From: Terebella lapidaria
Lineage: Eukaryota; Annelida; Polychaeta; Terebellida; Terebellidae
Assembly (NCBI GenBank): GCA_949152475.1
Contig: OX424561.1
Coordinates: 20,702,481-20,766,480, forward strand
Reading direction: 5' to 3'
Length of the DNA stretch: 64,000 nucleotides
A program made the position numbers and the translations under genes. Positions 20,391 to 50,744 of this stretch are shown in pieces (position 1 is the first letter of the stretch; each line of letters begins with the position of its first letter). Under the pieces are notes generated by a model. That model had not been told where the DNA came from, searched no databases, and saw only the letters and a program-made list of their open reading frames with translations.

Positions 20391-21948
20391 GAAGTCAAAG
20401 AATTAGGAACTATCCCGATCATATGTTTGATAATCGCACCGTTTTGCTATATACTGCGGAGTGCATAAAAACTATACAATGTGAGTGAGACATGAAAACA
20501 GCATTGTTTTTTTTTTCGCCATTATTTCGTCAATAATTCATGTAGATCTATTTCGATGAAACATTGGCAAGAGTGTATCAAGGTTTTAATTTTCGTAGTG
20601 ATTTCTATGTGAATGAACAGTTAGCCTATTTGGTCTGTACATAACGAAATAGGAAAATGATCATGGCAGGTCCGCTGTCCATTTCACCAGAAGTTTACTA
20701 TGCTCGAGACAGGCCAACTTTTCTATTTTGCATTCAATCTTCTTGAAAATATATCCCTAGTTTGGCGGTTATGAGGTAGAATTATACCTATCAAAATTCC
20801 ATCTGGGTTTCAGTGTATTCAGTGTTTCAGTGTTTTTAGTGCATTTTCAGTGTTTTAATTTTCAGCCAGAGCACATGTACAACAACCGTTACCTACACCA
20901 TTAAACTTTGTCCGAGTACCGTTACCTACATCCTGTCATTACCGTTACCTACATCCCTTCGGAAAATAAAATCGCTCTAAACGCACGTTTCCAGCCTAAT
21001 GAACGAGCAGAGACGATTGTATGCCAAGAAATATTACCAGTACTATGTAATTATACACAGTTCTTAAACCAAAACCTCGTAAATCATCTGTATCACCAAT
21101 TGCAATTTGAAGTGTTCTTGCCCGTGGTCATCTTGGGATGTAGGTAACTTAGTTACCTACATCAGGTTTACACCCAGTGATGAATAAGATACCACAAATA
21201 GGAGTTATTAGAGGATGCGCTTTGGAAATATAGCTGCCAATGGATTACCACATACCATCATAACCCATCAATGAACATACCACAACACACGACACAGAAT
21301 GCATTTATTTTGTAGGAGCGTTGAACTCAGAAAACAGTGTCTGCGATTAGCCAGGTCCTGATATATAGATGCAGATTACTACTTGTTGTGGTGCCCATGA
21401 CGCCGCACAAGTTTGTACCTCTGGGTATCGTCAGTTTCCAGTACAGGGGCTGTTGAAAAGACACAGGTGACATGGTTCAGGTGAGAAATGATTCGAGAAT
21501 ATTCCTGAAAGAGTCATTCATTTGTAATCTTTATTCATTTATTGATAACATGGCAGTCTTATTATAGTTACATGTGTCCACAGGGAAGTAACTCGTTTGG
21601 TGACAGAATGTGGCAAAAAAAGACCATTAGGTTCCATGGATATGAAACTTTTCAGGTATTTTATAGACTTGCTCTTTCATTTCATATGTTTCTGTTGTTT
21701 CAGCCTGCAGGTTTCATTCTATTCAATGGCCTAGAGTGGCCCTGCAATGCAACCCTTCAATGATATTGATAAGGGTTTCAATACTGGTCGTATATTTCAA
21801 GATATAACGTGAACATTTGATACATGGATACAGACTTGTGGAATGTCCCAGACTATATGTCCGTTTGAGTAGATGAGTCGCAGTAGCTGTAATCATTGCG
21901 TGCACTATCCGAGAAAGGTCGTGCTGATAAAACCTGTACAAAAGTCAA

Positions 21949-22075
21949 TGTAAGTATCTATCTATTACCACTAATACAGTCAGATTTTGATGATGCCAAG
22001 AACAAACGTAAAATACAACATTTTGCAATAGAAACGAAGCTCAACCAAATAGTTAATCCAAAGACACACTGGTGT
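21949..22075 (+). repeat. Family S module
   Basis: 'aatgtaagtatc', 'ctattaccac.aatacag.cag', 'ttttgatgatgccaa.aacaaacgtaaaatacaacattttgcaatagaaac' (in pieces) and 'cacactggtgtcat'. Copies also lie at 23.63, 45.39, 47.92 and 60.48 kb (+) and 34.45, 37.44, 56.27, 56.49 and 56.75 kb (-). It is about 125-180 bp with no TIR that I can define. The frame through it is not kept in other copies. Confidence 0.75.
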
Positions 22076-22461
22076 CATAAAAGTGAGCTAGCGACACTGA
22101 CGTTTGACAAATATACCTGTCAAAGAAACTGATGGAGCTGAGATATTCGCATTTTTCTCTGGAAACTAAAACATGGTAATTCATCTCCTTATCTCTTGTA
22201 TATGTGGAGTTCAGTGCTTTTATGCACAACTTTTGACATTCATTTGTCTGTCATGCACAATGCAAACACAACATATTTAACACAGAGGCATACAATCAGG
22301 TCTAGTAGTAAGAAAAATACACTTCTATATACTTAGTTTCAATGGTAATATGATTCCAATTTCCAAATATGTTTGTAAATTCTATGTAGCTGTCCATGTA
22401 GGTGATACAGACGAATTTATGTATTGTTGTGCACATCCAAATGATAACATTTATTATTGAG

Positions 22462-23082
22462 GAGACTACCAGTCATAAACATGTTGGCCTAACGTTCACT
22501 AGGGATCTTTCTTGGAGTAACCACATATCAGACCTTGCGTCTAAAGCTACTAAGGTATGGAATGTTATCAAGCCAATCAAATTTAAAATGGACATATTAT
22601 CTTTGGAACGTTCATATATTTCCTGCATTAGACCTATTATGGAGTATGCAGATGTTGTTTGGGCTGGGGGCCAATTTAACGGATTTATCAAAACTTGACA
22701 AAGTTCAAAAGGAAGCCGCTAGTCTAGTAACCGGCACCACTGCCCGCTGTAATTCAGCGGCGTTAAAGGCTGAATTAAATTGGATTCCTCTCTCCGAGAG
22801 AAGAACACGTCAATGGTCATTGTCCACAATATTTGATTGAATGCTTGCCGGAATCTGTAGGCCGAAGATCAGCTTATGCTTGCCATCTCGACATAAGTAT
22901 ATGGCATCCTCATTTTTTTCCGTCTACGATTGCGTTTTGGAACGCATTGCCCATAGACGTGCGTAATGCTACTAACAGAAGGATCTTCACTCACAATCTT
23001 TCCACTATTGATACTATGCGCAACCCCCTGTATTATAGGGGTGATCTTTGCCAATGTTCATTCAGCCCGTATGAGAATTATA
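22462..23082 (+). pseudogene. LINE reverse transcriptase C-terminal fragment, unit 1
   Basis: Translated pieces show HKHVGLTFTRDLSWSNHIS, then SYISCIRPIMEYADVVW, then LDKVQKEAASLVTGTT and LNWIPLSERR, then FFPSTIAFWNALPIDVRN. This is the usual order after the catalytic core in CR1/Jockey/I-like LINE ORF2. Reading moves between three frames, with shifts near 22670 and near 22840, so it is dead. The catalytic YxDD part and the endonuclease are absent; the copy starts inside the RT domain next to family E and is cut off at the duplication junction. Confidence 0.8.
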
Positions 23083-24750
23083 CGGGCAAAAAACGACCAT
23101 TGGGTTCCATGGATATGAAACTTTTCAGGTATTTTATAGACTTGCTCTTTCATTTCATATGTTTCTGTTGTTTCAGCCTGCGGGTTTCATTTTATTCAAT
23201 GGCCTAGAGTGGCCCTGCAATGCAACCCTTCAATAATATTGATAAGGGGTTCAATACTGGTCATATATCTCAAGATAAAACGTGAACATTTGATACATGC
23301 ATACAGACTTGCGGAATGTCCCAGACAATATGTCCGTTTGAGTAGATGCACAGTGCGCAATCAGTTTGAAGATTTGGTCACTGGAGGTGGTCCTTTTCTG
23401 CAAATTTCATGGAAAACAGGCAAGTCCAATTTTAGGCTGTTGAGTTTGGTGATGCAAATGCATACTCAATCCGGAGAACTAATCAATAGAATACTGTAGT
23501 TACGTTCAATATACTCAAAACGGATTGTCAGCGGGTCAAACTGATTGCGCACTCTGAGATGAGTCGCAGTAGCTGTAATCATTGGGTGCACTATCCGAGA
23601 AAGGCCGTGCTGATAAAACCTGTACAATGTAAGTATCTATTACCACTAATACAGTCAGATTTTGATGATGCCAAGAACAAACGTAAAATACAACATTTTG
23701 CAATAGAAACGAAGCTCAACCAAATAGTTAATCCAAAGACACACTGGTGTCATAAAAGTGAGCTAGCGACACTGACGTTTGACAAATATACCTGTCAAAG
23801 AAACTGATGGAGCTGAGATATTCGCATTTTTCTCTGGAAACTAAAACATGGTAATTCATCTCCTTATCTCTTGTATATGTGGAGTTCAGTGCTTTTATGC
23901 ACAACTTTTGACATTCATTTGTCTGTCATGCACAATGCAAACACAACATATTTAACACAGAGGCATATAATCAGGTCTAGTAGTAAGAAAAATACACTTC
24001 TATATACTTAGTTTCAATGGTAATATGATTCCAATTTCCAAATATGTTTGTAAATTCTATGTAGCTGTCCATGTAGGTGATACAGACGAATTTATGTATT
24101 GTTGTGCACATCCAAATGATAACATTTATTATTGAGGAGACTACCAGTCATAAACATGTTGGCCTAACGTTCACTAGGGATCTTTCTTGGAGTAACCACA
24201 TATCAGACCTTGCGTCTAAAGCTACTAAGGTATGGAATGTTATCAAGCCAATCAAATTTAAAATGGACATATCTTCGGAACGTTCATATATTTCCTGCAT
24301 TAGACCTATTATGGAGTATGCAGATGTTGTTTGGGCTGGGGGCCAATTTAATGGATTTATCAAAACTTGACAAAGTTCAAAAGGAAGCCGCTAGTCTAGT
24401 AACCGGCACCACTGCCCACTGTAATTCAGCGGCGTTAAAGGCTGAATTAAATTGGATTCCTCTCTCCGAGAGAAGAACACGTCAATGGTCATTGTCCACA
24501 ATATTTGATTGAATGCTTGCCGGAATCTGTAGGCCGAAGATCAGCTTATGCTTGCCATCTCGACATAAGTATATGGCATCCTCATTTTTTCCGTCTACGA
24601 TTGCGTTTTGGAACGCATTGCCCATAGACGTGCGTAATGCTACTAACAGAAGGATCTTCACTCACAATATTTCCACTATTGATACTATGCGCAACCCCCT
24701 GTATTATAGGGGTGATCTTTGCCAATGTTCATTCAGCCCGTATGAGAATT
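23083..24750 (+). repeat. Tandem duplication of an E+LINE segment, unit 2
   Basis: This is the second unit of the duplication, carrying the same E part, family S module (23628-23752) and LINE fragment as unit 1, plus the 208-bp insertion. At its end the LINE sequence continues into the true 3' part of the element, so unit 2 retains the original context and unit 1 is the truncated duplicate. Confidence 0.85.
23349..23556. mobile_element. 208-bp MITE with RSS-like CACAGTG end and 5-bp target duplication
   Basis: The left end is CACAGTGCGCAATCAG... and the right end, read inward, is CAGAGTGCGCAATCAG...; the TIR is 21 bases with one mismatch. AGATG is duplicated at 23344-23348 and 23557-23561. 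Unit 1 of the tandem duplication shows the same site unoccupied with a single AGATG at 21871-21875. The 5-bp duplication together with a CAC start fits Transib/ProtoRAG-type transposition; hAT elements start CAG but duplicate 8 bp. No protein is encoded. The internal 'ggtcactggaggtgg' portion is unique here. Confidence 0.85.
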
Positions 24751-50066: not shown

Positions 50067-50377
50067 GGGTGTGTTTTTTTGTGTACAGATCACAAACCTG
50101 ATCCCGGATCACAAAACCTGATCCCACACGAAGCGTACGGATCTGGGATCAGAAACATCATGCAGATCGGAGAGATCTAATAAACCTCCTCGGCATTTGC
50201 ACTGTTCCTTTCATTCTGGAAATGATTCGTATTGCATTTGCTATGTTTTTACCAAGCAACTATAATACATGTACAAAATGATCACATTTTAAGGTTAGAA
50301 GTGTTTTTCGGGTACGGATCAGAAACCTGATCCTGATCCGGGATCAAGTTTGTGATCCGTACGCAAAAAACGCACCC
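50067..50377. mobile_element. MITE with GGGTGYGTTTTTT termini and GATC-rich palindromes
   Basis: The left end GGGTGTGTTTTTTTGTGTAC and the right end (inward GGGTGCGTTTTTTGCGTAC) continue with 'gatcacaaac.tgatcccgg', a TIR of about 40 bases. The right part 50315-50365 is also internally palindromic (GTACGGATCA ... TGATCCGTAC). TTT stands on both sides as a possible 3-bp duplication. PIF/Harbinger is possible from the GGG start and 3-bp site; this is inference. Confidence 0.7.
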
Positions 50378-50744
50378 TTTATGTACTAGTATACACTAAG
50401 AGTGCTCAATGAACTAACAGCAATATATGGGCTAGATATAATATGTACAACAACGTGCACCATGATATGTACACCCCTCGGGAGAGATATGTTTGCAAAT
50501 GCTGACAGTTTCTAGCCATATTAGGCCCTGATAGCAAAGCATTTATGGACATTCTCATGCACTACAAAAACAAAAACTTTTTTTTCATCAGCGCACGAAT
50601 CTGTAATAGTCAAAAGTCCGTCGGTTGCCATGCGCGACACAGGTCAATATGAAGGAAGTCAATACCGCAATATATCGGACCGATTGCACTCTGTGTAATC
50701 CAATGTAAAATATTCGTAGGCATATAATAATGCTGCATACTGGT

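Follow-up and report, generated by a model that had tools for sequence, protein, structure and literature searches.

Transib transposons have ends that follow a CACWRTG rule, and 5-bp target duplications are also made by a subgroup of the hAT elements and are found in non-autonomous families for which no enzyme is known. According to the available part of PMC7204232, 5-bp duplications and CAC tips are common to Transib, RAG and RAG1L-RAG2L (RAGL) transposition, protostome RAGL ends have the consensus CACTWMCAAACKTYKBB, and non-autonomous RAGL elements have been reported, in small numbers, from P. imbricata and several deuterostomes. The excerpted text of PMC8289069 gives CACAGTG as the consensus RSS heptamer and describes changes in the CAC triplet as critical for ProtoRAG activity.

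The window analysed here, a stretch of 64,000 nucleotides from Terebella lapidaria, contains a non-autonomous element of 208 bp at 23349..23556 (unstranded; delimited by empty-site comparison and family alignment), which confirms the insertion and the 21-base TIR with one mismatch that had been predicted from the letters alone. Comparison of copies places the left TIR, with the tip CACAGTG in its family state, at 23349..23369 (plus strand) and the right TIR, with the tip CAGAGTG, at 23536..23556 (minus strand); the ends read CACAGTGCGCAATCAGTTTGA on the left and, reverse-complemented, CAGAGTGCGCAATCAGTTTGA on the right, with one mismatch in 21. Copies of the 5-bp target duplication AGATG lie at 23344..23348 and 23557..23561, and the corresponding empty site, a single AGATG, was found at 21871..21875 in the neighbouring duplicate (all three unstranded, from the empty-site comparison), as had also been claimed. 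In the self-alignment of the window, the tandem-duplication unit without the insertion spans 21612..23079 and the unit with it 23085..24750 (both unstranded), 21612-21875 being 95.5% identical to 23085-23348 over 264 bp and 21871-23079 being 98.2% identical to 23557-24750 over 1209 bp. Both alignments end precisely at the AGATG copies. Given this exact break and the single AGATG in the other unit, the element inserted after the tandem duplication and is younger than it, in agreement with its supposed youth relative to its surroundings.

The element belongs to a dispersed family (family 1) with ends of the CACAGTGCGCAATC type, which we searched for in the 761.6-Mb assembly of 438 contigs. When up to 2 mismatches are allowed, the 21-base end occurs 164 times in the genome (78 and 86 per strand), whereas its reversed pattern, used as the control, does not occur at all, so that a chance origin is excluded. 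A DNA search with the window element returned 41 matches on many contigs (the best 40 of 173 candidates were scored), namely the window itself, a single short piece and 39 others that are 91-95% identical to the element across its first 184-186 bp. In the family alignment the window copy consists of arm positions 1-186 fused to the final 22 bp of family 1, which makes it a short member with an internal deletion. The usual arm near base 166 reads TCAAAACTGATT, close to the terminal TCAAACTGATT, and the internal deletion may have exploited this likeness. Among the family-1 ends examined for tips and duplications, a CAG tip was found only in the window copy; with one CAC triplet mutated in this way, its right end is probably disabled and the copy now fixed in place.

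We examined 29 distinct two-ended copies, out of at most ~80 implied by the 164 end matches. The first 20 end pairs fetched all showed CACAGTGCGCAATCAGTTTGA with a CACAGTG tip on both sides and enclosed 566 to 2758 bp, the common form (9/20 copies) being 1.84-1.96 kb long with inverted arms of ~665-707 bp. Longer copies of 2.7-3.4 kb (L080, L085 and L089) have a separate repeat inside; the additional stretch in L085, found also in L073, L080 and L089, is a separate repeat of high abundance, with 1761 initial candidates, 40 of which were scored. Copies of the tip, 31-43 bp long, are present as units in L077, L079 and L080.

A perfect 5-bp duplication flanks 28 of the 29 copies: all 20 pairs fetched first and eight of nine further distinct copies, the window copy included, L050 being retained as the one miss. 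From this count we left out L022, L029, L032, L066 and L067, which are the same insertions as, or lie on a duplicate contig of, L081, L087 and L076, as well as L049, whose flanks are the same as those of L048. When duplication lengths of 2 to 12 were tried in 21 copies, a length of 5 fitted all 21, a length of 2 fitted one and no other length fitted any. The duplications are rich in A and T, and their central base is one of these two in 27 of 28. All 43 aligned arms (the window left arm included, the window right arm left out) start with CACAGTG, in a set chosen for near-exact ends, which favours this start. The departures seen are the CAG of the window right end, TAC in L048/L049 and GAC in L050. 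Thus both of the predicted tips are indeed present in the window, but CAGAGTG is a private C-to-G change of this copy and not a feature of the family, whose other members normally carry CACAGTG twice. The search for further copies with 5-bp duplications, proposed as a check in the original prediction, gave a positive answer, and of the outcomes named there as adverse, neither 8-bp duplications (in the 21 copies tried) nor the lack of a multi-copy family occurred.

Divergence within family 1 rises inward from the ends. Mismatch to the consensus in 35 arms is 1.7% at positions 22-41 and 4.3-6.8% at 42 to 295; positions 1-21 were not counted, having formed part of the selection of copies, and eight of the 43 arms were omitted (seven with large insertions or short shared repeats, plus the window left arm). 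From this gradient, which would be expected if each end were under selection for transposition, and from the 31-43-bp tip units we infer a functional end of ~41 bp. Pairwise differences among the same 35 arms average 8%, and the 28 duplications show 0 mismatches over 140 positions, which suggests that family 1 was recently mobile and inserted from already diverse copies, with the caveat that selecting copies by near-exact ends favours young ones.

We consider it somewhat probable that family 1 is a recently mobile, non-autonomous family of Transib type whose helper is missing from the assembly, and that the window copy is its deletion derivative. The ends would be bound in trans by a DDE transposase belonging to the RAG1/Transib clade, with a Transib as the likeliest candidate. 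This enzyme would cut 5' of CAC and join the element to target bonds with a 5-bp stagger, A or T being favoured at the centre; the transposase may have been lost, may be unassembled or may be carried by other individuals. Judged from these features, the element is real and non-autonomous and appears to work like a substrate of the Transib/RAG clade. With Transib and its non-autonomous derivatives it has in common the 5-bp duplication and a CACAGTG tip, of the CACWRTG type, at both ends, but it differs in its symmetric tips, in the arms near 690 bp of the common 1.85-kb form, and in that no Transib transposase was detected in the assembly. Of the predicted identity as a non-autonomous Transib/RAG-like element, the tips, the duplications and the lack of autonomy hold, but a matching autonomous partner was not found. 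Since searches did not find the enzyme, membership of Transib is not established, and "RAG-like" applies to the tip and the duplication length, not to a demonstrated enzyme.

These searches used C-terminal pieces of the transposase in entry 6pqn (DNA-mediated transposase), which we take to be the solved Helicoverpa zea-type Transib, together with a motif, on this assembly and without a positive control in a Transib-bearing genome. Only RAG1-like genes were matched in the genome, with 6 hits for a 47-residue piece and 8 for a 76-residue piece, because the assembly carries complete RAGL transposons. The degenerate DNA motif for EEAxEARNK gave one genomic site, which is unrelated and does not encode the motif. 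A RAG1-family match at C1:66168521 was considered as a Transib and rejected, since it is a broken RAG1L read as separate frames. No transposase was recognised in the family-1 copies read. The longest stop-to-stop frames in the first 20 fetched copies, of 204 aa (L078) and 184 aa (L072), matched 0 Pfam families, one zinc-finger model remaining below the cut-off at E 0.013, and a 134-aa frame of L089, whose longest frame is 151 aa, had no Pfam match even with a limit of E 0.1. By eye, no transposase was recognised in 13 single-ended loci, 12 of which depart from the known family sequence; two single-ended loci, L010 and L011, have reverse-transcriptase-like frames, also by eye. A tblastn search with RAG1L and a Transib piece found neither in the fetched loci other than the RAG-bearing L090-L094. 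For comparison, the bivalve transposon survey PMC10294476 reports one Transib.

The absence of a partner enzyme from these searches, for a family that moved recently, would also fit an undescribed or unrelated transposase that makes 5-bp duplications and to which the CAC tips are coincidental, and enzyme-less non-autonomous families with 5-bp duplications do exist. We regard this as unlikely, given that the whole 7-base tip is identical to CACAGTG, the consensus RSS heptamer in PMC8289069, and that this tip and a 5-bp duplication are paired in two unrelated families, the second being represented by one copy. The ends of that second family (family 2), CACAGTGCTTACACAGATTAAGG, have 217 genome matches against 0 in the control. 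The one copy assembled, at C1:3711957-3714238 (L006/L007), is 2282 bp long with 236-bp arms and the duplication ATGAG. Palindromic GGTACC motifs lie near the family-2 ends, and a row of 11 evenly spaced copies occupies C2:49211782-49228410; long copies of this family are found at C3:29638162-29641927 and C7:34895513-34899329. Families 1 and 2 agree at 16/23 end positions and, past the heptamer, at 9/16 (reached by 238 of 20000 shuffles, as one of 15 pairs tested in what is a weak test), which hints at a single enzyme with a preference for CACAGTGC tips serving both; family 2 may thus share the helper of family 1.

The genome also encodes transposases of the RAG1 clade. The RAG1 Pfam model has 18 matches (best E 6e-87), among them open frames of 1046, 1058, 1022, 979 and 682 aa. 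Adjoining the 1046- and 1058-aa RAG1L frames is a convergent frame of 494 aa, with Kelch repeats above the Pfam cut-off and PHD and RAG2 matches below it, that is similar to RAG2L in entry 6b40 (E 5e-34). RAG1L and convergent RAG2L frames were read at L090, L091, L093, L094, L096-L100 and L104-L106 (on C7, C9, C3, C14 and C1). Complete RAGL transposons are present, and three of 9.4-9.6 kb, the copies with both junctions read, have perfect 5-bp duplications: C7:27373894-27383469 (AAAAG), C14:19996041-20005424 (TAACA) and, on the minus strand, C1:85232550-85242172 (CACAG). Two RAGL copies are 98.8% identical over 6.8 kb. The elements of this first RAGL family begin with CACATAGAAACGTCCC and have the reversed end CACATAGAAACGTTGTG, with 13-bp inverted ends CACATAGAAACGT on both sides, and each of the six genomic sites that match the 21-base 5' end exactly has a RAG1 match no more than ~4.5 kb away. 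A TTAA break was considered as the right end and rejected: the C9 copy departs there, and more copies place the true end further on. A second RAGL family is found at C1:81375670-81379568, with RAG1L in two open pieces and an open RAG2L of 500 aa, 51% identical to the first; a second RAG2L, roughly 52% identical, lies at C12:27913816.

The RAGL transposase of this genome might be what moves family 1 in trans, with recognition relaxed beyond CAC. Its genes are the sole RAG1-clade transposases found, several of them with long open frames, its complete transposons make duplications of the same length, and the intact duplications of family 1 point to recent movement, albeit in a selection that favours young copies. 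The two kinds of element are alike in CAC tip, 5-bp duplication and host genome, and past the heptamer family 1 and the RAGL 5' end are identical at 7/16 positions, a level that 1850 of 20000 shuffles reach. Such direct similarity is a weak test, because RAGL's own two ends agree with each other at just 6/16 (3817 of 20000 shuffles). Against the protostome consensus past the heptamer, as excerpted from PMC7204232, the local RAGL ends agree at 8/10 and 10/10 positions, but family 1 at 4/10 and family 2 at 2/10; within the heptamer of that consensus, all ends compared fit just CAC plus one or two bases. Positions 8-10 read CGC in family 1 and not AAA as in RAGL ends, and the AAACGT core common to the local RAGL ends and two other high-copy repeats is absent from it. 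Moreover, family 1 and the RAGL pieces examined share no DNA, and among the 100 listed of its 164 end matches none has any of the 18 RAG1 matches within 200 kb. The RAG1-like element with the same TIR that the original prediction proposed to look for, as an alternative to a Transib, did not emerge either, the first RAGL family's ends, which were those compared, being different. We therefore do not favour mobilisation by the RAGL transposase, which is likewise unlikely.

More broadly, it is rather doubtful that the RAG1L-RAG2L transposase mobilises families with the exact RSS heptamer CACAGTG that are without the usual RAGL core. If it did, many separate short elements would offer a natural case in which RSS-like heptamers are used in trans by a RAG-like enzyme, as has been proposed for the way in which split antigen-receptor genes arose. 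The likeness of family 1 to vertebrate RSS is confined to the heptamer, which is identical to the consensus in the excerpt of PMC8289069; inspection of the family-1 consensus end showed no nonamer at a spacing of 12 or 23 bases, bases 20-28 (GAAGATTTG) and 31-39 (CACTGGAGG) matching the RSS nonamer ACAAAAACC at 2/9 and 1/9, in agreement with the original prediction, which saw none.

Repeats with RAGL-type ends are numerous in this genome and, by its end sequence, family 1 is not among them. The RAGL 5' end has 136 genome matches with up to 3 mismatches (20 in the control), and ~80 of the 100 listed carry the tip of a 255-bp element (family 3), whose RAGL-type ends read CACAATGAAACGTT (CACAGTGAAACGTT at one L103 end). 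Its three copies read, at 102-356 of L101 (reverse complement), 101-355 of L102 and 101-355 of L103, have the 5-bp duplications CAGAC, TGATG and CAGCA, and its two ends agree with the excerpted RAGL consensus past the heptamer at 8/10 and 10/10 positions. Family 3 also has the AAA at positions 8-10 and the AAACGT core of the local RAGL ends. The RAGL 3' end has 80 genome matches with up to 2 mismatches (0 in the control), of which 70 read CACAATGAAACGTTGTGCATTGC, one of them ~1 kb from the second RAG2L at C12:27913816. A further repeat, in L102 from 935, starts with CACAATGAAACGTTGTGCATTGC, nearly the RAGL 3' end, and has 70 genome sites; no target duplication was found for it. As a small DNA transposon that is non-autonomous and has a clean empty site, the window insertion itself is nothing unusual, and the genomic context is more useful: complete RAGL transposons, high-copy repeats with matching ends and two CACAGTG families without a visible enzyme are found in one genome, where end recognition by a RAG-like transposase could be tested with natural matched and mismatched substrates.

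Returning to family 1 as a Transib-type family, a hAT-type element of the 5-bp subgroup would account for the CAGAGTG of the window right tip, and is very improbable given the uniform CAC start of the aligned arms (chosen, as noted, for near-exact ends), the confinement of CAG to the window copy among the ends examined, and the complete lack of 8-bp duplications (0/21 copies). A chance or duplication-born inverted repeat without any transposon insertion, to which the position of the element within a tandem duplication might point, is already refuted by the exact empty site, the target duplication and the dispersal of the family on many contigs.

Inverted repeats by themselves would not be decisive evidence for insertion. 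Inverted repeats of 21 bases that lie within 400 bp and differ at no more than 1 position turned up in 13 rows, from 4 places in the window, and the empty-site comparison was made for the 208-bp element alone. A further short element with inverted repeats occupies 50073-50380 of the window; its ends are GGGTGTGTTTTTT-like, its subterminal repeats are rich in GATC, and judged by eye it is apparently of another kind.
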